From Acanthamoeba sp. SK_2022b (Eukaryota; Discosea; Longamoebia; Acanthamoebidae): a DNA stretch of 64,000 bases. The DNA lies in contig JANDJZ010000116.1 in assembly GCA_027943245.1 (NCBI GenBank), positions 1 to 64,000 of the forward strand. The letters run 5' to 3'. The translations under genes and the position numbers were made by a program. Shown one piece after another: positions 26,244 to 54,365 of this stretch (within the stretch, counting starts at the first letter, position 1; every line of letters begins with the position of its first letter). The notes below the pieces were generated by a model. It worked only from the letters and a program-made list of their open reading frames with translations. It had not been told where the DNA came from and searched no databases.

Positions 26244-26260
26244 ATGACGGTCATGCAACG
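26238..26260 (+). promoter_or_regulatory. Perfect hairpin spanning the receptor 1 start codons
   Basis: Arms CGTTGCATGA and TCATGCAACG around loop CGG form a perfect 10-bp stem. Both candidate ATGs (26244 and 26253) lie in the stem. The tandem paralogue at 34171 has no such structure. Confidence 0.55.
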
Positions 26261-27828
26261 CCACCACAAAACCCTACCTCTCTTGCTTTTCATTGGACTG
26301 CTGGTAGTGCTTCTTCAGCCTGGTTCTGGTGCGACCTACGTTGCTCCTCATTCCACCTCTGCTTGATTACATGCACAGACCCTTCAGACTGACTCTTCCT
26401 TCTGTGGCGGTGTGACACTTTCAAAGCAGCAAACATCTTCAGCAAGGAGATCTACGGCCAGGGCGACGCTGATGTGGCTGCCCTCTTCTCCGCCTGGAGC
26501 GATGCCTACCGCGCCTCGCGCGACGACCTCACTCTTATCTTCGACGTGGCGCCCGCCGAAGAAGCCCTCGCCGCCATCCAGGCAGGCACGAGCGACTTCA
26601 TCAACCTCGACGCGGCGGTCGAGTACGACGACCCGGACTCGATCGCGCAGTATGGGTCCATGTTCCAGGTGCCCATCGCGGCGCAGGGCATCGTGTGGGT
26701 GTACAACCTGGGGAGCGGGTTCAACGCGAGCGTCGACGGCGCCTTGGTGCTCGATCTCAAGGCTCTCGCCGATGTACCTCCTTTCTTCCCCCCTTCCTTC
26801 ATTTGTGGTGTTGCTGCCCTCCGATCGCCTGCGTGGTGGAAAGGGCGTCTTTTTTCCATTTTTTGATCTGGTAGTATTTTTTTGCTTTTTTTTGATTCGT
26901 GTGTCCAGTTCCCCATTTGTTGTGCTCGTTGCAGTGTGCCCGCGCCGGGTAAAATTGTCATTCCTATTAAGCTCCATATGTGTTTCCCTTTCCTTCAATC
27001 GGTTTTTTTAAAGCCAAGCTTCCTGTATCACTGAGTTTCCGTGGTCTGACATGCGACTGGGGCCAGATACTGATGGGCAACATCACGATGTGGACCGACC
27101 CGTACCTGGTCTCCCTCAACCCGCACCTCGCCAGCGCCAACAAGCTGCCATCACTCAACATCTCTCTCTCCTTCATCGACGGCGATGGCCTCGACCTTTC
27201 GGAACCTCTCAAGCGCGCCCTCCCGCCTCTCAACCCCGCCCTTGGGCCGGCGCTCGACGCCGTTGGTGGCAGCTTCAGCGGGCTGCCTCCAGCTTTGGAC
27301 GGCCACGCACGAGCCATCGCCGAGCAGGAGGCGCGGTTGGCATTCGTGGCAGCAACCGAGGGGAGTCTCACGTATGTGGGTTCAGCCGATGCCCTTCGAG
27401 CCGGCCTCACATGCGCGAGCATCGTCAACAACGCGGGCAACCCGATTGTGCCCTCGACCACTAGGCACACCTCCTCCGGCGCCTTTCTTGGTTGTACGAT
27501 ACTGGAGTCTCACACAGCGGGTCGGGTGTGAGCAGTGTGGCGGCGGCGGTGGCCGACTTTGCCGAAGACTTCATCTCGGGCAACGTGGTGATCGATATCT
27601 ACGATGCGCCGGGCAACGAGTCATACCCGCTGGCCTATATCAGCTTCATCTCCATCCCGAGGAACATCACGTTGGCCGACTGCTCGCCCGTGGTCGACCT
27701 GCTCACCTTCTTCAGCTGGACCCAGACCAACCAGAGAGCGCTGGACATTTTGACGCAGCTGTCCTACGTTTCCTTTGTACGTTCATTATTTTTCAAGTTT
27801 TACCATCCATTCTTTACTTTTCTTAATT

Positions 27829-27859
<31 letters not shown>

Positions 27860-30800
27860 TAAAATATCAGCCTAATTTTTGGAGCTAGGGCGATGGAGGC
27901 AGGAAGAACATGATCGACACGCTGGCCGAGGTGGAATGCAACGGCGAGCAGGCATTCGACCTCTCCGTGCTCATCGGCATCGGCGCGCCCCTCGCCGAGT
28001 TCGCCATATGGGCCACTGACTACTCGAGCGACGACGACGACGATAAGCTGCACTACTACTTTGCCTCGACCGAGGACCCGACCGTGGAGGCGGCGCGCGA
28101 GCTCGTCGACTTTGGCGTCACCACCATGGGCCTCAACACGACCGCCTTTCCCAACCTCACCATCCTCCCTTCGGCCGCCATCGGCCTCGTGCCTGCCTAC
28201 AACCTGCCCACTCTCCTCAACACCACCACCACCAACAGTCTGGTGCTAAGTCTCGAGGTGATCGGCGACATCTACCTGGGCCGTGTGACGCGGTGGAACG
28301 ACACCAAGATCAGGGAACTCAACGGGGAGCTGGTGGGAGCGGGGGTGGAGCTGCCGGAGGAGGAGATCGTGGTTCTGGTGCTGGAGGAGGAGAGGTCGGA
28401 GATCACGGAGCTTGTGCGGCGCACTCTGAGCCAGGTGGTCGACGGCTGGGACGCCGCCGTACGCCTCACCCCCCCCCCCCACAATCCTCCTTTAGAAGTT
28501 GTTGTTGACAATCTTGGGGGAGGAGAGCAGATGGGAAGCGGCACGAGTTTCCCAGTGGAGGAGCAACCCAACCGCACGATCAAGGTCACCACGGTGAGCC
28601 TGGCCCCCACGCTCAAGACCACGCCTTACGCCTTCACCATTTGGGTGCGTTGCCACCACTCGTCATCACCCTACGTTTTGAGTTGTGGTTGACAAAGTGG
28701 GGGACGTTGTACTGTGGGGGGGGGAATGATGAAGACGCCGTTTCAAGTGATCAACACCCGCACGGCTCAGGTGGCGCGGCTTGCCAATCGCGACGGTTCC
28801 GTGGTGTCACCGTCGCAGGAAGCCGTCGCTGCGGCCCTCGGTGACTACACCGTAGAGAACTTCATCACGACATCGACCGTTGCGTTTGCACCTATCCTCA
28901 ACTGTACGAGCGCACACATGTCCCACACGGTGTGCTGCGGCCCGCTAACTGATGTGAAATTGTATTTCTTTTTTTTTTTCCTATTGGTTGGTGGCCTTGC
29001 GCAGCGGAAGCAGAAGGCAGCTGGCCGATGGTTGCGTGGGCGTCGTTTCTGATTCTCCCCGATCAGGACAACTGCAACAAGCTGCGTGGCCTCGTCGAGT
29101 TCGTGTTCTGGGCACAGACCAGCGATGACGCCAATGACGGCCTCACCCGGTACCATATCGATCGCCAATCAAACAAAAGAGGTCTCTCTATTGGTGGTAG
29201 CTCACTACATCGAGAACTTACACAGAACGTTTGGAGTGAGCGCCAACCAAGTCGACGCCGTGCGGAGGCATGTCTTCCTCCAGTTGGAGCGGCTCACGTG
29301 CGACGGCGAGCTGGTGGTGCCGGTTCAGGAGTGCCTCATCAACGGCACGCTGTGCTCCGACCGCGGCACGTGCAGCGAGGAGCTGGGCAAGTGCATCTGC
29401 CTGTCGGGCTTCACGGGCGATCGGTGCCAGGTGGTGGAGTCGTCGTCCGACGGCTTGGTCATCGGCCTCGGTACACGCGTGTGCTTGTGCAAATCATGTG
29501 GCGGTGGTGGTGATGACGTTGACGATGTTGTTGGCGCAATCTACACGGGGGGTGGGTGAGGACATGCAGGGGTGGGACTGGCGGTGGGGCTGGCGGTGGC
29601 GTGCTTGGTGCTGTGCCTGCTGGTGGCGCTTGTGGCACTGGCGGCGAGGAGGAAGAGGGTGGAGAGGGACGAATGGGAGGTGGACCTGGAGCACGAGATC
29701 GAGCTGGGCGCCGTGCTGGGCACGGGCGGGTTCGGCGAGGTCTATCGAGCCACGTGGAAGGGCACCGAGGTGGCCGTGAAGAAGATGGTCGTCTCGTCTT
29801 CATCATCGTCTTCTTCGGATCGCAACACCAAGGAGATGGAGAAGAACTTCCGCGACGAGGTGACCCCCTTCAACCTGCAACTTCAAGTTTACATGGTTGG
29901 CTTACCAACAACAACCAACAACAACCAACAACCAACAACGGAACAGGTGCGAGTGATGACAACGTTGCGACATCCGAACGTGGTGCTGTTCATGGCGGCG
30001 TGCACCAAGGCGCCCAACATGTGCATCGTCATGGAGTTCATGAGCCTCGGCTCCCTCTACGAGGTGCGTTTCTAGAGTTGTCTAATCACCTCAACGTGGG
30101 GGTCGCCTTGCGCTCAGTAAATGAATGTCGACGTGGTGTGCAACGAGGACAGCTGCTGCACAACGAGCTGGTGCCAGAGATACCGGCGGAGCTCAGGTAC
30201 AAGATGGCATACCAGGCGGCCAAGGGCATGCACTTCCTGCATTCGTCGGGCATCGTCCACCGCGACCTCAAGTCGCTCAACCTCCTCCTCGACAACAAGT
30301 GGAATCTGAAGGTTTCCTCTCTGCCTTTTGCTTTTCCTCTTCTTTCTCTCTATCCGTCTCTCGTCTTCCTTGCCGCTGGACCATTCCAACCGATTGGTTT
30401 CCTCCATGGCAGGTGAGTGACTTTGGGTTGACCAAGTTCAAGGAGGACCTCAAGAAGGCCGGCACCGCCCAGCAGCAGCAGCAGCTACAGGGGAGCATCC
30501 ATTGGACGGCGCCAGAGGTCCTCAACGAGGTCGATTCGGCCGACCCCATCCTCGCCGACGTACTCGCTCCTCCCTACCACCACTGCACTGTCCCTATCCC
30601 TGCAGAGAGGAGGTCAATCGAGCACTGCTAATTACGGGTGGATGGGTAACGTTGGTTGCAGGTGTACTCGTTTGGGATCGTGTTGTGGGAGATGCTCACG
30701 CGAGAGCAGCCCTACCACGGCATGAGGTTCGCGCTCACGTTCGCGTGCACGATTCGCACAGCGCGCGATATTTAACATTCCGCGCATACCTACGCAGTCC

Positions 30801-33659
30801 GGCGGCAGTGGCGGTGGCGGTCATCCGCGACCGTCTGCGGCCACCGATGTCCGAAGAAGCCGACCAATCCGAATTCGCCGAGCTGGTCACCACGTGCTGG
30901 CATCAAGACCCCTCCATCCGGTAACCACTCCTCCCCTCCTCTATCCTTGACCGTTAGCGGCTAACGTCGCTGTCCTCTCCCATTGGTTACTAGCCCGACA
31001 TTCCTGGAGATCATGACCCGCCTCAGCGCCATGCTGGGCGACTCCAGCGTACGTGCCCCCCCCCCCAATCACCTTCACCGGTGGCCTGACAGAAGACGGC
31101 GTTGCTATGGTCGCGCTACCAGGGCTATCTGGCCACCAGGACATCCACGTCGTCCTCATCGAGCGGCAAGGGCGAGTGGTCGCTCCCGTCGTACGCTCTC
31201 TCTTTCTCTTCCCATAACCACATCGCGCGTGCTCCGTGCTGTGGAGGTTTTGGAACTCTGTCTAGAGGGGGGAGGTAGCTGATTGGTCTGCTGTGCACTG
31301 GTCGCGTTAGGTCGGCCACGGGCATGTCGCGGACGTCGTCCTCTGGTTCGTCGGCCCAGTCCTCCGGCCAACTCCACAACGCGGCAGCGGCCGGCGTGCG
31401 GCCCCCGGCAGGCGATAACGTGACGATCGTGTTCACGGACATCGCACGCGCCGCCTCCCTCTGGGAGTTCAACGCCGAGGCCATGCGCGACGCCACCCTC
31501 CTCCACAACCAGCTCCTCCGGTACCGCCTACCCCATTATTCTTTTATTTCTTTTTCTATTATTTTTTGTTTTTATTAGTTTATTTTTTCCTGTTCGCTGA
31601 TGATACAATCATTGGGGGCGTAATGTAGGGCGGTGCTGCAGGAGCATGGAGGCTATGAGGCGGCGGCGTTCATCATGCGCGACCGCAACAGCGGAGAGGG
31701 CTCCTTCTGCATGGCCTTTGCCGACGTGCGCAACTCCCTCGCCTGGTGCGCCGACGTCCAACAGCGCCTCCTCGGCCTCGACTGGCCCGCCGCGCTGCTG
31801 GCCCACGCCGGCGCCGGCGAGGAGTGGGGCCAAGCCGACGAGCGGGTGGTGTTCCGCGGACTGCGCGTGCGCATGGGCATGAACGTGGGGAGCGTGCGCA
31901 CGGTCAAGGATGCCATGACGCGCCGCGTCGAGTACGTCGGTCCCGCTGTGAACGCCGCGGCGCGCATCACGGCACTGGCCCACGGCGGCCAGGTGGTGCT
32001 GTCGCAGTCGACCATGGACCGACTGCACCACTTGACCGGCGGTAGCGGCGGCGATGACGCGGAGGAGCAGCATGGGGCCAAGGGGCGCAATAGGTTCCAC
32101 TGCCTGGGCCGGTTCGAAGTGCCTGATCAAACCTCCGGTACTGTCACAGCACAGGCCTGTGCTGCTCTCGAATGATGTCGACAGAATGTAGAGCAGGCAT
32201 GCTGACGTGGCTCTGTTTGGGGGGGGGCGAGCAGGGACGAGGCTTTACGAGTACAAGGTCGAGGGACTGGAGGCCCGCTTCTTTGGCGGCGTGTCCCAAT
32301 CGCGCCGCAACGTGAACGAGGAGGACGGCGCGCCGTGGGACGAGAGCGAGGAGCGCAGCGGCGGGAGCAGCCGGTACAACAGCGGGCGCCACGAAGGTGA
32401 TGAAGGCGAGGAGGGAGAGATGGCACTGCAGAACGCGGTGGGCGAGGGCATGATGTTCAAGGAGGACAACTTCCTCACCTCGGCCAACCTGTGCCGCTGG
32501 ATCATCGACTTCAACGACATCCAGCTCGGCAACCAGGTACCCTCCCCCCTCACACCCCACTCCCTGTTGGCCCAAACCTTGTGGATTCATTTTGTGTCGA
32601 CATGGTTGCTGGTGGGGGAGAGCAGGTGGGGATGGGCTCGTACGGGCTGGTGTTCAAGGGCCAGTGGAAGGGCGTCGAGGTGGCGGTCAAGCGCTTCGTG
32701 AAGCAGAAGCTCGACGAGCGGAGCATGCTCGAGTTACGCGCGGAGATGGCCTTCCTCTCCGAGCTTCACCACCCCAACATCGTCCTCTTCATCGGTTAGC
32801 GCCCCTCCCCTTTCACCCACCCATCTGCCCCGCCACCATCATTGTGACGACAGTGGATCCTCAATGTTGATGAATGCGCGCGGTTGTATCTCACATGCTT
32901 GTGCGTTGGGGGGGGGGGCGGAGCAGGAGCGTGCGTGAAGTCGCCCAATCTGTGCATCGTGACAGAGTTCGTCAAGCAGGGCTCCCTCCGCGACCTCCTC
33001 AACGCGAGTGGGGTGAAGCTGGAGTGGCGGCGGCGCATGAGCATGCTGCGGTCGGCAGCGGTGGGCATCAACTACCTCCACTCGCTTCAGCCCGTGATCG
33101 TCCATCGCGACCTCAAGCCCTCCAATCTCCTCGTACGCGCCTCTCCATTCTACTCGTCGTTGTCATCATCATCATCATCGTCATGTTGACGCCGGGCCGA
33201 GCCCATGCGATGATTGTTAAGGTGGACGAGAACTGGAACGTGAAGGTGGCCGACTTTGGCTTCGCTCGCATCAAGGAGGACAACGCGACGATGACCAGGT
33301 GCGGCACGCCGTGCTGGACGGCGCCAGAGATCATCCGCGGTGAGGGCCACTACTCGGAAAAGGCCGACGTGTACAGCTTCGGCATCATCATGTGGGAGGT
33401 GGTGACGAGGAAGCAGCCCTTCGCGGGCCTCAACTTCATGGGCGTGTCGTTGGACGTGCTCGAGGGCAAGCGGCCGCAGGTGCCGAGCGACTGTCCTCAC
33501 GCGGTGGCCAAGCTCATGGCCAAGTGCTGGCACGACAAGCCCGCCAAGCGACCCTCCATGGACGACGTCGTCGCCTTCTTCGACCGTCTATGCTCCTCTG
33601 CCGCTTCGAGTGCAGGGCACGGTGGCGTGAGCGACCTGGAGCTGGGCACCCCTGGTTGA
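26244..33659 (+). CDS. Receptor 1: two PstS-like modules, EGF, TM, TKL kinase, class III cyclase, TKL kinase
   Basis: The signal peptide is on 26253-26328 (LPLLLFIGLLVVLLQPGSG; ATG 26253 aligns with the paralogue, 26244 is nine bases upstream). PstS-like module 1 starts AANIFSKEIYGQGDADVAAL, continues ILMGNITMWTDPYLVSLNP, ends LLTFFSWTQTNQ. Module 2 starts LIGIGAPLAEFAIW, has ELVDFGVTTM and IYLGRVTRWNDTKIREL, ends LVEFVFWAQT. Then come EGF (CSDRGTCSEELGKCICLSGF), a span (GLAVGLAVACLVLCLLVALVAL), kinase 1 (GTGGFGEVY, VAVKK, HRDLKSLN, DFG, WTAPE), a cyclase (VTIVFTDIARA, RMGMNVG, EYVGPAVNAAARI) and kinase 2 (GMGSYGLVF, VAVKRF, HRDLKPSN, DFGFAR). Predicted: ligand-bound ectodomains drive two kinases and cyclic-nucleotide synthesis at the plasma membrane. 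One donor (27465) is GC, where the paralogue has GT. Confidence 0.85.
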
Positions 33660-33757
33660 CAGGCAACATACGCCGACCGGTGTTTGCTCGAAGCTACAGA
33701 CTTCATTATTCGGACTTGAGCGGGCATTTCTCTGCGTAGATACGCGCAGATAGAAAA

Positions 33758-33767
33758 AATAAATAAA
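33758..33767 (+). terminator. Overlapping AATAAA polyadenylation signals of receptor 1
   Basis: Two overlapping AATAAA hexamers about 100 bases after the receptor 1 stop. Confidence 0.5.
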
Positions 33768-34170
33768 AAAATAACGCCGTTATAATATTCCTATTGGAAC
33801 ACAAAGCCGTGTGTACCCGCAGCTGTTTCGTGCCATTTGCCACAAAGCCTAGCACGCCGCCTTAAAAGTAGTTGCTGTGTGATCTGTTATATCTCGGACC
33901 GATCTACGAAATCACGAGTTTCCCCGCACCGAATTACCAAGCACCCAAAAGTGGCGCATGTCTTTTATGGTCGCGATCTCTATTTTCGGCCTACACCCAC
34001 CAGCTCCCGCATCTGTGCTCGTCGTCCCCCATCTGGAACCCTCCTTACCTTTCCAAAGCCAACAAGAACACTTTCCCGGCCTATCACGCAGCAACTGCCT
34101 CCTCTTTTGTTGCTGGCGCTCAACCGTCTTTGTTTCTTAACTCAAACGCAAGCAACACAACGCCACCGCC
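33768..34170. promoter_or_regulatory. Region between the tandem receptors (receptor 2 promoter)
   Basis: About 400 bases with no gene. It must hold the receptor 2 promoter. No clear TATA box or homology to the region before receptor 1 was seen, apart from general C/T richness just before the start. Confidence 0.35.
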
Positions 34171-37100
34171 ATGCGCCTCCACAAGGCCGTGTCTTTCCTT
34201 CTCTTAGGCGTTCTGGTAATGCTTCTTCATACTGGTTCAGGTATGAGGCTTCTTCTGCTTTAGCCGTTTTATGTCTGTGTTGTTTTCTGTTGACCCTCGC
34301 CACCCCCGGCAACGACGGCTGCGGATCCAAAGCAGCAAACATCTTCAGCAAGGAGATATACGGCCAGGGCGACGCTGATGTGGCTGCCCTCTTCTCCGCC
34401 TGGAGCGATGCCTACCGCGCCTCGCGCGACGACGTCACCATCGTCTTCGACGTGGCACCTGCAGAGGAAGCCCTCGCCGCCATCCAGGCAGGCACGAGCG
34501 ACTTCATCAACCTCGACGCGGCGGTCGAGTACGACGACCCGGACTCGATCGCGCAGTACGGGTCCATGTTCCAGGTGCCCATCGCGGCGCAGGGCATCGT
34601 GTGGGTGTACAACCTGGGGAGCGGGTTCAACGCGAGCGTCGACGGCGCCTTGGTGCTCGATCTCAAGGCTCTCGCCGATGTACCACCCTTCCTCCTGCGC
34701 GAGTTGGGATACTCTTACTATCTCCCGAAAAGGAAACTAGTTTGCGTTGAAAATAGTTTTGCGTTGACTGCGCGGTGAGCACTCTTCCTGACCTGAGCGG
34801 TGTTCATGCTGGACAGATATTGATGGGTAACATCACGATGTGGACCGACTCGCACCTGGTCTCCCTCAACCCGCACCTCGCCAGCGCCAACAAGCTGCCA
34901 TCACTCAACATCTCTCTCGCCTTCATCGACGGCGATGGCCTCGACCTCTCGGAACCTCTCAAGCGCGCCCTCCCGCCTCTCAACCCCGCCCTTGGGCCGG
35001 CGCTCGACGCCGTTGGTGGCAGCTTCAGCGGGCTGCCGCCAGCGTTGAACGGCCACGCACGAGCCATCACCGAGCAGGAGGCGCGGTTGGCATTCGTGGC
35101 AGCGACAGAGGGGAGCCTCACCTATGTGGGCTCAGCAGATGCCCTTCGAGCAGGCCTCACATGCGCAAGCCTGGTTAACAGCGCCGGCAACATCGTTGCC
35201 CCCACGCAGGCTAGGTGCCTTCCTCCGTAACTTCAGCGTCGACGCTGTGGTCTAACTGCTTTCACCTTGGAATGTGGACAGCGTGGCGTCGGCGGTGGAC
35301 AACTTCAACGAGCAGTTGATTGCAGGTGATGTAGTGATCGACATCTTCGATGCGCCAGGCAACGAGTCTTATCCGCTGGCCTTCTTCAACTTCATCTCCT
35401 TTGGGAAAAATCTTACCACGAGCGACTGCTCGCCGATCGAAGATCTTCTCGCGTTCTTCAGCTGGACTCAGACCAACCAGGTTCACATAAGCCTTACTTT
35501 GAAGATGTGTGTCCTTGATGGGTTTCTAATATTCGTGTCCACCTCATGTGAAGCGAGCACTGGACCTGTTGAATGACCTGGGGTACTGCTCGATGGTACT
35601 CACCATACACGACACACGAAGGCGCGCTTATGTTGTTTCTCTAATGTGCATGTATACCAACCATACGCAGGGCGACAGCGGGAGGAAAGCCTTGATCGAC
35701 ACCTTGTATCAGGTCGAATGCAATGGCGCGCAGGCGTTTGACCTCTCCATACTCATCGGCATCGGCGCGCCCCTCGCCGAGTTTTCTCTCTGGACAAACG
35801 ACTACTCCAGTGGCGAAGCAGATGACAGGCTGCACTACTACTTTGCCTCGACCGAGGACCCGACTGTGGAGGCTGCGCGCGAGCTCGTCGACTTTGGCGT
35901 CACCACCATGGGCCTCAACACGACCGCCTTTCCCAACCTCACCATCCTCCCTTCGGCCGCCATCGGCCTCGTGCCTGCCTACAACCTGCCCACTCTCCTC
36001 AACACCACCACCACCAACAGTCTGGTGCTGAGCCTCGCGGTGATCGGCGACATCTACCTGGGCCGTGTGACGCGGTGGAACGACACCAAGATCAGGGAAC
36101 TCAACGGGGAGCTGGTGGGAGCGGGGGTGGAGCTGCCGGAGGAGGAGATCGTGGTGCTGGTGCTGGAGGAGGAGAGGTCGGAGATCACGGAGCTTGTGAG
36201 GCGCACTCTGAGCCAGGTGGTCGACGGCTGGGACGCCGCCGTACGCCTCACCCGCTCTGCTTCTCTCCGGCGCATGTGAGGAGCGGTTGTTGACGATCTT
36301 GGCGTGGCAATGGGTACTTGGGAGGAGTGCAGATGGGGAACGGGACGCGTTTTCCTGTGGAGGAGCAACCTAACCGCACGATCAAGGTCACCACGGTGAG
36401 CTTGACGCCCACGCTCAAGACCACGCCCTACGCCTTCACCTTTTGGGTGCGTAGCCACCACTCGCCTAGGCCTGTGGGTTTACCACGGTTGACTGACCGT
36501 TCACGAGAAGACGCCCATTCAAGTGATCGGCACTCGCACAGCGCGCATGGCACGGCTTGCCAATGGCGATGGCTCCATTGTGGCTCCTTCCAAAGCCGCC
36601 GTTGCCGCGGCCGCCGCGAGTGCCTTGTCCACCGGTTCTTCGGCAGTGATGTTCGAGCCCATCCTCAACTGTACTACCTTCTCCCAAACTCAAAAAAGAC
36701 GAACCCCACCGTTAACTTGTTAACCATGCGTTACGAACTACAGCACCAGCAGCGGGGAGCTGGCCAATTGTGGCCTGGGCTTCTGTGCTGCTGCCCAACA
36801 ATCTCAGTAATTGTTACAAGACGCGTGGCCTTGTAGAATTCCTAGATTGGACTCAGACCAGCAGCGATGCTCTTGACGACCAGGCTCGGTACTGGTTAAA
36901 CTGGCTTGTCCAAAAGAGTCCTCTCTCACCTCGTACCTCCGACAGAACCTTCGCTGTACTCTCCATTGAAGTAGCGCCGGCGAGAATTACAACGTTTAGG
37001 ATGCTGGAGCAGTTCCGTTGTGCCGGCCAATACGTGGTGCCGTTGCAGAAGTGCTTCATCAACGGCACGCTGTGCTCCAATCAGGGCACCTGTGCTCAGG

Positions 37101-40100
37101 ATCTCGGTACGTGCATATGCAATCCAGGCTGGACCGGCGACCGATGCGAGTATGCAGCGACTTCCACCGACTCCTTGGCCATCGGTCTCGGTACGTCTCT
37201 ACTGCGCCTGAGGTCAGTCTACTTCGTAGTGACAACGGAGAACGGGTTGGGGGCGGCACAGGAGTGGGACTCTCCGTCGGCCTGCTGGCCGTGTGTATGG
37301 TTGGTCTGCTGGTGGCGCTTGTTGTACTGGCGGCGAGGAGGAAGAGGGTGGAGAGGGACGAGTGGGAGGTGGACCTGGAGCACGAGATCGAGCTGGGGGC
37401 CGTGCTGGGCACGGGCGGGTTCGGCGAGGTCTATCGAGCCACGTGGAAGGGCACCGAAGTGGCTGTGAAGAAGATGGTCGTTGCATCGTCGGATCGCAAC
37501 ACCAAGGAGATGGAGAAGAACTTCCGCGATGAGGTACCCAGTCTCCCCTTCCTCCTGGGCCCTATCTGGGCTACTTCATCTGGGTTAGACCAACAATGGC
37601 AACAACGATGGAACAGGTGCGAGTAATGACGACGTTGCGGCATCCGAACGTGGTGCTGTTCATGGCGGCATGCACCAAGGCGCCCAACATGTGCATCGTC
37701 ATGGAGTTCATGGGCCTCGGCTCCCTCTTTGAGGTGGGTTTCTCTATGCGCACTGAAAGTTATGATTGTCGGATCTCTTTTGGTGACGTGTGCAACAGCT
37801 TCTGCACAATGAGCTGGTGCCAGAGATACCGGCAGAGCTCAAGTACAAGATGGCATACCAGGCGGCCAAGGGCATGCACTTCCTGCATTCGTCGGGCATC
37901 GTGCACCGCGACCTCAAGTCGCTCAACCTCCTCCTCGACAACAAGTGGAACGTCAAGGTTGGCACCCGCTATTACTTCTTCGCACGGGGCCCGTGCTCCG
38001 GCTTAAGCTTTCCTCCGGGGCAGGTGAGCGACTTTGGGTTGACCAAGTTCAAGGAGGACCTCAAGAAGACCGCCGCTGGACAGAATCAGCAGGGAAGCAT
38101 CCATTGGACGGCGCCCGAGATCCTCAACGAAGTTGAATCGGCCGACCCCATTCTCGCCGACGTACGACCATGCGGCCAGCTATCGATAAGGAAGGCTTGG
38201 AACTGAAAAGATGTGGCGATGTTGGCTGCAGGTGTACTCGTTCGGGATCGTGCTGTGGGAGATGCTCACGCGAGAACAGCCCTACCAGGGCATGAGGTAC
38301 GTTGCCTTTACACGTGTGCAGCCCTCTATTTAGTTAACAACATGATGCATACGCCAATGCAGTCTGGCGGCAGTGGCCGTGGCGGTCATCCGAGATGGTC
38401 TGAGGCCACAGATACCTGATGACGAGCTTGATCGGTCCGAGTTCGTAGAGCTTATTACCACGTGCTGGCATCAGGACCCCTCCATTCGGTAATCACCTCA
38501 CCTCGCCGTCGTCTCCTTTTAGTCTGCCTTATTGACAATGATGACGCATGGCCACAGCCCGACGTTCCTTGAGGTCATGACACGTCTCAGCTCAATCCTT
38601 GGCGATTCCAGCGTACGTGCCTCATTCAAGTTGACTGCTGCAGCGATTTGGAATCCACCTCACTCCGGCCATCTTGGGGGTTCAAACACTCAGCTCGGCA
38701 GCCACAACACAAAGAGCTCCATGTCGTCATCCAGTGGCAAGGCCGACTGGTCCCTTCCATCGTACGTTCCTCTTCGCCGAGGTGAACCCTGGACATCAAC
38801 ATGGATCTGAAACGCCGAATACCATTGCAGGATGGCCACCGGGGCGAGCTTGTCCCGGACGTCCTCGTCATCCTCTAGTTCGGCCACGAAGATCCACCGC
38901 CCTGATGTGTCGGGCCCCGGCGCGAAGATTCCCACAGGCGACCACGTGACGGTCGTGTTCACCGACATCGCACGCGCCGCCTCCCTCTGGGAGTTCAACG
39001 CCGAGGCCATGCGCGACGCCACCCTCCTCCACAACCAGCTCCTCCGGTACCTCCTTCCTTCTTTCCCACTATCCGCCGACTCGCATGCGCCACCCACTCA
39101 CTCGAGCTAAACTGTATCGACGCCTCGTATTGTGGCGCATTGTGGTTGTGACCCCTACGCAGATCGGTGCTGAAGGAACATGGAGGCTATGAGGCGGCGG
39201 CGTTCATCATGCGCGACCGCAACAGCGGAGAGGGCTCCTTCTGCATGGCCTTTGCCGACGTGCGCAACGCCCTCGCCTGGTGCGCCGACGTCCAACAGCG
39301 CCTCCTCGGCCTCGACTGGCCCGCCGCGCTGCTGGCCCACGCCGGCGCCGGCGAGGAGTGGGGCCAAGCCGACGAGCGGATGGTGTTCCGCGGACTGCGC
39401 GTGCGCATGGGCATGAACGTGGGGAGCGTGCGCACGGTCAAGGATGCCATGACGCGCCGCGTCGAGTACGTCGGTCCCGCTGTGAACACCGCAGCAACAA
39501 TCACGGCACTGGCCCACGGCGGGCAGGTGGTGCTCTCGCAGTCGACCATGGACCGACTGAACCACTTGACTGGCGGTGGCGACGACGCGGAGGAGCAGCA
39601 CGGGGCCAAGGGGCGCAATAGGTTCCACAGCCTGGGCCGGTTCGAACTGCCGGACCAGCCCTCCGGTACTGCCCCACAGAGACTCGAATGGAGCCTGGCG
39701 GGCTGACATGGCTATGTTGTGGGTTTGGGCGAGCCAGGAACGAGGCTTTACGAATACAAGATCGAGGGACTGGAGGCCCGCTTCTTTGGTGGAGTGGCCA
39801 AGACCAAGCGACAACCGAGCGAGGACGGAGATCAAGAGGGGTGCAGCAGCGACAGCGGAAGTGACAGCGGGCACTACGACGGGGATCGTGAAACGGCGCT
39901 GCAGAACGTGGTGGGCGAGGGCATGATGTTCAAGGAGGACAACTTCCTCACCTCGGCCAACCTGTGTCGCTGGATCATCGACTTCAACGACATCCAGCTC
40001 GGCAAACAGGTTCGTTCCATGGTTCTGGCTAAACTATGTGTCGCGAAGGTGTTGACGATGAATGTGGCGGGGACCGTGAGAGCAGGTGGGGATGGGCTCG

Positions 40101-41072
40101 TACGGGCTGGTGTTCAAGGGTCGCTGGAAGGGCGTCGAGGTGGCGGTCAAGCGCTTCGTGAAGCAGAAGCTCGACGAGCGGAGCATGCTCGGGTTCCGCG
40201 CGGAGATGGCCTTCCTCTCCGAGCTTCACCACCCCAACATCGTCCTCTTCATCGGTGAGCCCCCCCTCCTTTACCTACTTATCTGCCCCACCACCACCGA
40301 TAATTCGCATGTTGTATCATGTGCTGATCAAGTCCTTGGATGGAGCAGGAGCGTGCGTAAAGTCACCCAATCTGTGCATCGTGACCGAGTTCGTCAAGCA
40401 GGGCTCCCTCCGCGACCTCCTCCACAACAACACCAGCGGAGTAAAGCTGGATTGGGGGCGACGCATAGGCATGCTGCGGTCGGCAGCGGTGGGCATCAAC
40501 TACCTCCACTCGCTTCAGCCCGTGATCGTCCATCGTGACCTCAAGCCCTCCAATCTTCTCGTACTACTCCCTATCCACCATACCGCGTCTCCTGCTTGAA
40601 ATCAAGCTTATGGCATTGTTGTGGACATGTTCTGATAACTGTCCAGGTGGATGAGAACTGGAACGTGAAGGTGGCCGACTTTGGCTTCGCTCGCATCAAG
40701 GAGGACAACGCGACGATGACCAGGTGCGGCACGCCGTGCTGGACGGCGCCAGAGATCATCCGCGGTGAGGGCCACTACTCAGAGAAGGCCGATGTGTACA
40801 GCTTCGGCATCATCATGTGGGAGGTGGTGACGAGGAAGCAGCCCTTCGCGGGCCTCAACTTCATGGGCGTGTCGTTGGACGTGCTCGAGGGCAAGCGGCC
40901 GCAGGTGCCGAGCGACTGTCCTCACGCGGTGGCCAAGCTCATGGCCAAGTGCTGGCACGACAAGCCCGCCAAGCGACCCTCCATGGACGACGTCGTCGCC
41001 TTCTTCGACCGTCTATGCGCCTTGTCCGGCGCCGGTGCCGCCGATGTCGAGCGAACTATGACTTCTGTCTAG
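34171..41072 (+). CDS. Receptor 2: tandem paralogue (PstS-like x2, EGF, TM, TKL kinase, cyclase-like, TKL kinase)
   Basis: Twenty-four exons read by eye sum to 5,034 bases: 1,677 residues in frame. Approximate order: signal peptide 1-24, PstS-like module 1 24-352, module 2 353-680, EGF 690-740 (CSNQGTCAQDLGTCICNPGW), membrane span 748-770 (GLSVGLLAVCMVGLLVALVVL), kinase 1 790-1056 (GTGGFGEVY, VAVKK, HRDLKSLN, SDFGLTKF), Ser-rich linker, cyclase-like domain 1100-1318, acidic linker, kinase 2 1397-1670 (GMGSYGLVF, VAVKRF, HRDLKPSN, ADFGFAR, WTAPE). Both kinases keep Lys, HRD and DFG. The cyclase keeps the first metal Asp (VVFTDIA), but the NxxxR transition-state motif is NTAAT, so Arg is lost. 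The intron 35481-35553 is absent from receptor 1 at the same codon. It lies head-to-tail with receptor 1. Confidence 0.88.
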
Positions 41073-52489: not shown

Positions 52490-53302
52490 ATTGTAGAGTA
52501 TGTGTCGTTAGTGCTGGTAGCCTGTACAAGAGTGTACATTCATCAGATAAACAGAAATAATAGTGCCATTATCTCTCCTCCTCATTGAGCAGTGTTGCCC
52601 CCATTTGTTGGCTACGCCTCGGTGTGGCACTTGGTTTCGCTGATCCAGGTCAAGGAAAAGGTGAAAGAAGGAGACAAGGGGAAAGGGGACACGACTGACC
52701 GGCGTCGACTCGTGCAGCACACGCGCGCGTCGCGTGGGTCCAAGCAACGAAAAGTCGGGCGGGAGTCTGCTGCACGCTTGCCCCAGAGGACCGCACCCAG
52801 CCGGGGCAGGCGCTCCTTTAGCGTCTTTTGGGTTGGCCCCACCTGCAACGCCATCGGGGCAGCTTCGCCTCCAAAGGAAAACTTGGGCGCTGCAGGTCGA
52901 CGAAGCGTATCTCTGCCGCGACCTCGCCCTCCGCGCCATTGGTCGGTGCACGTGGCACCGGTCATGATGCGTGTTCGACCGCGAAATTTCGTGGATGTGC
53001 CGGTGGAAGGCCCCCTCGCGCGTACAACTCGAGCCAGGAGACAGTTGTGACTGGGCCACACCACGCGAGGGTCGCAGCTGGCCGTATAAATGCACCCCTA
53101 CTGTGGCCCTCTTCATTCATATCAGCAACACGAGCACTCTACTTCCTCCAGCGAACCCCTTTCCTGCAGCCGGGCAGTGAGTAGTCACTCGCTCCCTTTG
53201 ATTCGCTACTCTCCTTTTTCTCCCACGCTACTACTGCGCCGTCGTGGTAGCTTCTACTCGGTCGATAGCTTTGAGAACAACACACTACACAACAGCGAGA
53301 AG
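52490..53302. other. Intergenic / 5' region of the kinase gene
   Basis: About 810 bases. ORFs of 150-200 codons exist on both strands but are mutually overlapping and lack motifs. The last 220 bases form the kinase promoter and leader. Confidence 0.4.
53085..53090 (+). promoter_or_regulatory. TATA box of the Ser/Thr kinase gene
   Basis: TATAAA, 213 bases before the ATG at 53303. An initiator-like CATTCATATCAG begins about 25 bases downstream, a normal TATA-to-start spacing. Confidence 0.55.
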
Positions 53303-54365
53303 ATGGCCATGCACGAGGAGACGGTCGTGATTCGCGAGCAGGTGGGCAGCGGCGGTAGCGCGACGGTCTACCGCGGCAGCCTGGCGCCCTCAAACGCGGA
53401 CGTGGCGGTGAAGATCGTGAAGAAGGACCTGCACTCGGAGAAGGGCCGCAAGATTTACAACCGCACCAAGTCGGAGAGCCGCATAATGAGCGAGATCAAC
53501 CACAAGCACGTCTGCAAGATAATGGGCGAGGTCGAGACCGACACCAACATCTTCCTCGTCTTGCAGTACGCCTCCAACGGCGACCTGCTCGACCGGCTCA
53601 ACGCCCAGGGCCCTCTCACCGAGAAGCAGTCTCGCAAGATTTTCAAGCAGCTCGTCTTGGCCATCAACCACCTTCACGGCCGGGGTGTCGTGCACCGTGA
53701 CCTCAAGCCTGGTACTACTTCCACTCCTCCCCTCCCTCTTCTCCCTCTTCGCGCCGCCCCATTCCCTTCTTGTCCCTCTGCTTTCCGCCTCGCCTCCGCC
53801 GCTTTTCATCGCTTTCGTTCTTTTCCCCGTTTTCGCTTTCTTCGTTCTTTCGTTCGTGACGACGTCGCCTGACCCCTTTGCCCCAATTCGTACAGAAAAC
53901 GTGTTCTTCGACGAAAACGACAACGTGCTGCTGGGCGACTTCGGCTTCGCCATGACCTGGTCCCCCATCCAGACCGTCGAGGAGTACGTCGGCACGCTCA
54001 ACTACGCCGCGCCCGAGATCGTGACCCACACGCCCTACACCGGGCCCGAGCTCGACATGTGGAGCCTCGGCGCGCTGCTGCTGGCCATGCTCACCGCGCG
54101 CATCCCGTTCGACGCGCCCACCGAGGAGGCCACCGCCCTCAAGATCACCGAGGCCAAGTTCAAGATGCCCGTCGGCGTCTCGTCGGCGGCCAAGGACCTG
54201 CTGGCCAGGCTGCTCGAGCCCAACCCGCTCAAGCGCGCCACCATGATGGACGTGCTGGCCCACCCGTGGATGAAGACCCGCTTCCAGCGAACGTCGGCCC
54301 ACCTCGGCATGGCCAAGAAGCTGCGACAGGAGGCCGCCTGCTGCCACAGCTCCGAGGCCATGTAA
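53303..54365 (+). CDS. Ser/Thr protein kinase, small single-domain type
   Basis: Two exons (53303-53711, 53896-54365) give 292 residues, almost entirely kinase domain. Start MAMHEETVVIREQVGSGGSATVYRG (Gly loop GSGGSATVY); VAVKIVKKDL carries the ATP-site Lys; then ESRIMSEINHKHVCKIMGEV; hinge LQYASNGDLLDRL; catalytic loop GVVHRDLKPENV; GDFGFAM; activation end TLNYAAPEI; then GPELDMWSLGALLLAMLTARIPFD and a final LLARLLEPNPLKRATMMDVLAHPWMK. The HPW end and the overall motifs place it near CAMK/AMPK-like kinases. There is no regulatory tail beyond a short Cys-containing end, so control must come from partners or phosphorylation. Substrates are unknown. Confidence 0.9.

Follow-up and report, generated by a model that had tools for sequence, protein, structure and literature searches.

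What do two large predicted receptors of an amoeba perceive with an outer part that resembles bacterial binding proteins, and by which of their cytosolic domains do they pass the signal on? The question is raised by the locus at 26244..41072 in a 64,000-nucleotide stretch of Acanthamoeba sp. SK_2022b (assembly GCA_027943245.1, contig JANDJZ010000116.1, positions 1 to 64,000), referred to here as the window. A sequence-only reading had described two tandem genes there, each combining two modules like the bacterial phosphate-binding protein PstS with two kinases and a cyclase. The limits that it gave are exact, since the ATG of gene 1 lies at 26244 and the stop codon of gene 2 ends at 41072. Both genes were spliced by hand, exon by exon, and the resulting frames run uninterrupted from ATG to stop. 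The frame is continuous over 22 introns in gene 1 and 23 in gene 2, which speaks against a division of the locus into separate genes; 44 of the 45 introns are GT-AG and one is GC-AG.

The reading that we favour, to which we assign a probability of about two in three, is that the pair encodes single-pass receptors in which a double Venus flytrap of PstS type drives two kinases, while the cyclase-like domain is probably a dead scaffold, and that the flytraps are of Chloroflexota-type origin, with phosphate as the ancestral ligand and a changed ligand in the window pair. In the proposed mechanism, closure of the modules around a ligand would likely switch on the two cytosolic kinases on either side of the putative scaffold. 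We infer that, in an ancestor of the amoebae, a Chloroflexota-type PstS underwent duplication and fusion to a kinase-cyclase-kinase chassis; phosphate would have been the original ligand, and the window pair would have changed its ligand later.

In both genes, the domain order is a signal-like segment, two PstS modules, an EGF repeat, one membrane span, a kinase, the cyclase-like domain and a second kinase, and the hydropathy profile of each protein has an N-terminal signal-like segment and a single strong membrane span. From the ectodomain inwards, this is the layout of the amoebal kinase-cyclase-kinase receptors. For gene 1, the Pfam matches are PBP_like_2 (two stretches, 2e-20), PK_Tyr_Ser-Thr (also two stretches, 1.1e-127), Guanylate_cyc (1.1e-10) and several models of EGF. 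Among the sequences of the PDB, PstS was matched by module 1 of gene 2 (4.6e-19) and by module 2 of gene 1 (2e-15). Taken by itself, the latter falls under the cut-off of PBP_like_2 (PF12849; 21.5 versus 27 bits), but its PDB match is clear, and both modules match PstS or PBP_like_2 over their length, as had been claimed. The kinases were likewise described correctly: the residues expected of TKL-type protein kinases, namely the catalytic Lys, the HRD Asp, the Asn and the DFG Asp, are present in both kinases of both genes. Among the aligned relatives, 66 of 68 first kinases and 65 of 70 second kinases have them intact. (The nearest solved folds in the structure listings of homologs include CTR1, BRAF and TNNI3K.)

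The pocket for phosphate has been lost from the window receptors. Eight residues, which we take to form the pocket of E. coli PstS (Thr10, Phe11, Ser38, Asp56, Arg135, Ser139, Gly140 and Thr141), were compared after the letters at these positions had been confirmed. At these sites the two window modules have ADADILDL and --TTLSEI, so that one of the eight is kept in each; by this residue set, neither is a phosphate-binding PstS. The Arg and Thr positions are replaced, and the Asp at the position of Asp56 is retained in module 1. The sequence-only reading had the phosphate-binding loop replaced by STEDPT and VAPAEE; the loss of the pocket stands, but these strings correspond to the loop of Ser38, and the loop carrying Arg135, Ser139, Gly140 and Thr141 is replaced as well. 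The ligand of the window pair is thus probably not phosphate, as that reading had supposed.

Other members of the family have kept the pocket. Relatives were taken from a search with the cytosolic part (the best 120 of 5212 matches), and 140 modules were scored from the proteins listed and the window pair, five of them partial. At least four of five core pocket residues were found in two modules, both from protein P0144 of Balamuthia mandrillaris, whose pocket is intact in each (SFSDRSGT and SLSDRSGT); exactly three were found in three modules. In the same genome as the window, an assembly of 45 Mb in 1129 contigs, 18 further loci taken as amoebal were checked (15 of the 20 from one scan, whose other five read as bacterial, and three from another, in which the pocket was not kept at any of the three). 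Paralog L014 on contig C903, with the order PBP, PBP, kinase, cyclase and kinase, has all five core residues in both modules, although Gly140 is changed in module 1, for which the first exon was not found. Paralog L017 on contig C896 retains the pocket in module 2 only, and has one kinase and no cyclase within the 10 kb examined. The core pocket is thus present in both modules of P0144 and of the C903 paralog, which makes phosphate the probable ancestral ligand of these receptors. In seven other paralogs (L015, L018, L019, L020, L027, L028 and L134) the ectodomain is long and free of introns, in contrast to the intron-rich window pair. The strongest PBP matches in the assembly, L009-L013 on contigs C166, C255, C315, C736 and C775, were rejected as paralogs, since their open frames read as bacterial; pst transporter genes adjoin the match on C736, and the five contigs, on which no taxonomic search was made, may come from culture bacteria or associates.

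The cyclase-like domain has the first metal Asp in both window genes, but the second is replaced by Gly and the Lys that specifies the base is absent, so that neither gene has the two metal Asp residues of catalytic class III nucleotidyl cyclases. In an alignment of 55 double-PstS proteins, the window pair included, the first Asp is present in all 55, the canonical second Asp is absent from all 55, the Lys is missing in 54, and none combines both Asp with the transition-state Asn and Arg. In many of them an insert precedes the second site, where a GEGSF-like motif is found instead; when the canonical cyclase motif was sought as a text pattern, 2 of the 55 matched, both away from the site. The second Asp is also absent from all three single-module proteins, all five with a nucleotidase ectodomain and all ten cyclase segments from the same genome (some partial), and present in 12 of 21 proteins sorted as "other" and one of three Peripla_BP_6 proteins. 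The domain is thus probably not an enzyme. Since the second Asp is missing throughout while the kinases look intact, the output through cyclic nucleotides proposed earlier is not supported.

For the modules themselves, the bacterial ancestry proposed earlier is supported. We scanned 84,980 species genomes with modules from P0144 and from the same genome and took the best 80 of 585 relatives. The seven best matches are all Chloroflexota (E values from 8e-84 to 4e-64, the next match being at 4e-54), three of them named Anaerolineae or Anaerolineaceae. A profile of the eukaryotic and viral modules scored these seven at 246-316 bits, and the rest of 77 at 240 or less. A tree of 92 rows, including 35 of the 77 scored bacterial loci and E. 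coli, was reduced to 62 rows by leaving out 30 eukaryotic and viral modules that were redundant or had long branches. In the reduced tree, the other 29 bacterial and archaeal rows, two further Chloroflexota among them, form one side of a branch (support 100/100); the seven Chloroflexota PstS come next, followed by all eukaryotic and viral modules as one side (100/98). The larger tree gives the same bacterial neighbour. Bacterial ancestry is well supported, because the eukaryotic and viral modules adjoin the seven Chloroflexota proteins at 100/100 in a sample picked by similarity. Among the 77 bacterial proteins, a C-terminal tail with a Cys pair is confined to these seven; 55 of 68 first modules and 17 of 69 second modules have it too; the pattern was drawn up after the Chloroflexota sequences had been viewed and is purely descriptive, and a looser pattern adds L042 (8 of 77). 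The modules nearest the bacteria are those that keep the pocket, with the exception of the first module of L014. First and second modules fall largely into separate groups, and the second modules of Balamuthia, L014 and L017 group together (100/96), which suggests that the doubling predates the split of these amoebae; the Balamuthia first module stands alone.

The earlier proposal that an amoeba recruited a bacterial fold was right as to ancestry but understated the extent: the pair belongs to a large family across several amoebae and many giant viruses, which rules out a local invention. The best named cellular match is from A. castellanii Neff (59% over the cytosolic part). Among the matches listed, PBP-containing chains of the same kind come from A. 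castellanii and Balamuthia, and others from mimi-, moumou-, mega-, pandora-, molli-, pitho-, cedrat- and medusaviruses; in several metagenome entries the name itself combines a kinase with a phosphate-transport substrate-binding protein. (A search with the whole protein returned mostly kinases, and one with an unspliced open reading frame returned nothing.) Further listed chains pair such kinases with a 5'-nucleotidase, Peripla_BP_6, SBP_bac or Kelch domain. P0125, P0126, P0204 and P0228, with 5'-nucleotidase, Peripla_BP_6 or SBP_bac ectodomains, have other secreted folds of bacterial type as sensors, and P0001 joins a phosphonate-binding PBP domain to a kinase and a cyclase domain (142 bits) in what looks like an independent fusion.

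In a tree of 77 double ectodomains, built by a quick method and with several long branches flagged, 23 rows (20 named viral and three metagenomic) form a viral clade with a support of 100, comprising mimi-, moumou-, mega-, coton-, cedrat-, pitho-, molli- and medusavirus copies and some of the pandoravirus copies. Its sister is a pair of A. castellanii proteins (98), followed by the window pair (95). Capture from amoebae with later sharing among viruses would fit this nesting and the minimum of five changes between amoeba and virus labels. A scan of viral contigs with the modules that keep the pocket found 24 loci, at identities of 29-36%. In the same assembly, L135 (C379:27200-29500) is an intron-free double-PstS frame inside a pandoravirus clade (100), and may be a viral insertion, a contaminant or a host source. 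A fuller history is offered tentatively, at somewhat less than even odds: a Chloroflexota-type PstS, duplicated once, would have founded an amoebal class that is run by its kinases and has a dead cyclase, the C903 paralog and P0144 would be phosphate receptors, the window pair and the viral copies would have been retuned, and the viruses would have captured the lineage from amoebae.

Several observations weigh against parts of this account. The evidence for the fold comes from homolog P0230, whose structure listing covers only module 2 and a kinase; that of homolog P0162 is for the first kinase, and module 1 and the cyclase domain are in neither. The bacterial sample was picked by similarity to a Balamuthia module, Chloroflexota L041 and L042 cluster with the remaining bacteria, and the module tree is unrooted, so that the Chloroflexota are a neighbour and not necessarily the donor. 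A single duplication is not established, because the first modules of P0148 and P0151 are placed among the second modules (98/94). Both the transition-state Asn and Arg are retained in gene 1, and the motif GEG[STYM]F, found in 34 of the 55 double-PstS proteins, puts a Glu beside the lost Asp that might partly substitute for it, so that the loss of cyclase activity is a prediction. These residues, the recognizable fold, the constant first Asp, the publication of the family as nucleotidyl cyclases (PMC4053784, in the part available) and the second Asp on other chains of this kind would all suit a domain that makes cAMP or cGMP, either by itself or paired with an intact paralog in a heterodimer. 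However, the missing second Asp and Lys, the insert at the second-Asp loop and the loss of the Arg from gene 2 make such activity unlikely.

The most serious rival concerns the ligand. The modules might be a surface for binding a protein, for example of prey bacteria, another cell or a virus, with the PstS fold as a scaffold only. This would agree with the loss of the pocket from nearly the whole family (138 of 140 modules keep at most three of the five core residues), with the variability of the EGF region and the last part of module 2, which are among the least alike stretches between the two genes, and with the carriage of relatives by giant viruses. However, no direct evidence bears on any candidate protein ligand, elsewhere in both modules the two genes reach 94-100% identity, and fast change would be equally compatible with a changing small ligand; we regard a protein ligand as possible, though less probable than the favoured reading. 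It is less likely still that the window receptors bind phosphate or another oxyanion by a rebuilt pocket, for which the conserved similarity to PstS and the Asp of module 1 could be cited, since so little of the pocket, and neither its Arg nor its Thr, is left. Decay of one or both genes into copies without function, to which the single non-canonical intron might point, is very improbable for frames that remain open over so many introns and still encode complete kinase motifs. Kinase-driven flytrap receptors therefore remain our preferred reading.

The caution that such an architecture might already be annotated in Acanthamoeba was justified: the kinase-cyclase-kinase architecture is published, and a PBP-containing chain is in the databases. 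In the part available, Clarke et al. (2013, PMC4053784) describe 67 nucleotidyl cyclases of Acanthamoeba that combine a receptor domain and a single span with a cyclase set between two kinases, a design that they also mention for giant viruses. The Physarum genome paper (PMC4758236), from an excerpt, puts the number of such proteins at 66 in A. castellanii and at 43 in Physarum. The A. castellanii receptors thus resemble the window pair in having an extracellular receptor domain, a single membrane span and, on either side of a cyclase domain, a Ser/Thr kinase; unlike the present analysis, the available part of that paper (PMC4053784) names no PstS ectodomain, bacterial neighbour or loss of cyclase catalytic residues. 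In the accessible parts of the open-licence literature searched, we found no description of a PstS origin, the pocket or a dead cyclase for these receptors.

The closest viral counterparts, P0130 and P0143 of Mimivirus, P0122 of Pithovirus and P0129 of Pandoravirus, have the same two PstS modules, kinase, cyclase-like domain and kinase, with 52-62% identity over the cytosolic part. They differ in being viral and in having lost the pocket to other residues, giant-virus modules keeping at most three of the eight. Balamuthia P0144 has the same domain order and 51% cytosolic identity, and differs in its phosphate pockets. Bacterial PstS serves an ABC importer as a single binding protein, either soluble or lipid-anchored; it resembles each module in sequence and probably in fold, and the seven Chloroflexota proteins share the Cys-pair tail, but it binds phosphate. 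Animal receptor guanylyl cyclases have a periplasmic-binding-like ectodomain, one span, and a kinase-like domain followed by a cyclase domain, of which the kinase is dead and the cyclase active. The residues of the window receptors suggest the reverse, with intact kinases and a dead cyclase, and place them outside that definition. Venus kinase receptors share a Venus-flytrap ectodomain, one span and a kinase, but in the part of their description available (PMC2680970) the flytrap is close to GABA-B receptors and the tyrosine kinase is like that of the insulin receptor, whereas the window flytraps match PstS.

Within the tandem pair, 1418 of 1690 aligned protein positions are identical, and the exon order is the same except for one additional intron of gene 2 (35481-35553), gained or lost between the copies. 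The GC-AG intron is likely at 27465-27535 in gene 1; its counterpart in gene 2 is GT-AG. Between 26427-33659 and 34333-41072, near-identical and diverged coding blocks alternate, with fourfold sites per 50-residue block agreeing at 24/24 or 30/30 in some and at 4/10 or 9/23 in others, an alternation that suggests gene conversion. Identity in 50-residue windows drops to 46-60% at the end of module 2, in the EGF region and in two blocks of the cytosolic linkers, where the proteins vary most. It is highest, mostly at 90-100%, in the early half of each module, in the core of the cyclase and over most of the kinases. A further, distantly related kinase gene lies at 53246-54260 (24-31% identity).

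Table 1. Positions of the two receptor genes and their parts in the window.
Feature	Position	Strand	Basis
Gene 1 (1733 aa receptor, spliced model)	26244..33659	+	23 exons; open ATG-stop
Gene 1 exon 1, signal-peptide-like segment	26244..26328	+	hydropathy 2.08 at residue 11
Gene 1 PstS-type module 1, residues about 29-367	26427..27918 (exons)	+	Pfam; profile; PDB match of gene 2 module 1
Gene 1 PstS-type module 2, residues about 385-695	27970..29241 (exons)	+	PstS in PDB, 2e-15; profile
Gene 1 EGF-like repeat, residues about 726-759	29332..29433	+	EGF_Teneurin 1.5e-5, EGF_2 3.9e-5
Gene 1 single membrane span	29584..29640	+	hydropathy 3.13, residues 777-795
Gene 1 kinase 1, end approximate	29695..31003 (exons)	+	Pfam; catalytic motifs present
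Gene 1 class III cyclase-like domain	31411..32028 (exons)	+	Guanylate_cyc 1.1e-10; canonical second metal Asp and Lys missing
Gene 1 kinase 2	32519..33575 (exons)	+	Pfam; catalytic motifs present
Gene 2 (1695 aa receptor, spliced model)	34171..41072	+	24 exons; open ATG-stop
Gene 2 PstS-type module 1	34356..35700 (exons)	+	Pfam; PDB match; profile
Gene 2 PstS-type module 2	35752..36958 (exons)	+	profile
Gene 2 EGF-like repeat	37052..37153	+	alignment to gene 1
Gene 2 single membrane span	37276..37332	+	hydropathy 3.0, residues 769-787
Gene 2 kinase 1, end approximate	37387..38588 (exons)	+	gene model; catalytic motifs
Gene 2 cyclase-like domain, end approximate	38943..39560 (exons)	+	site string DAGENT; transition-state Arg also missing
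Gene 2 kinase 2	39998..40994 (exons)	+	gene model; catalytic motifs

If the favoured reading is true, a bacterial transport protein would have become the sensor of a large family of eukaryotic receptors, and the change of ligand could be tested by direct comparison with sister members that have kept the old phosphate pocket. This branch of a family known from publications as nucleotidyl cyclases may then signal through phosphorylation instead, and one may ask what giant viruses, of which several families have a version of the receptor, gain from carrying it.

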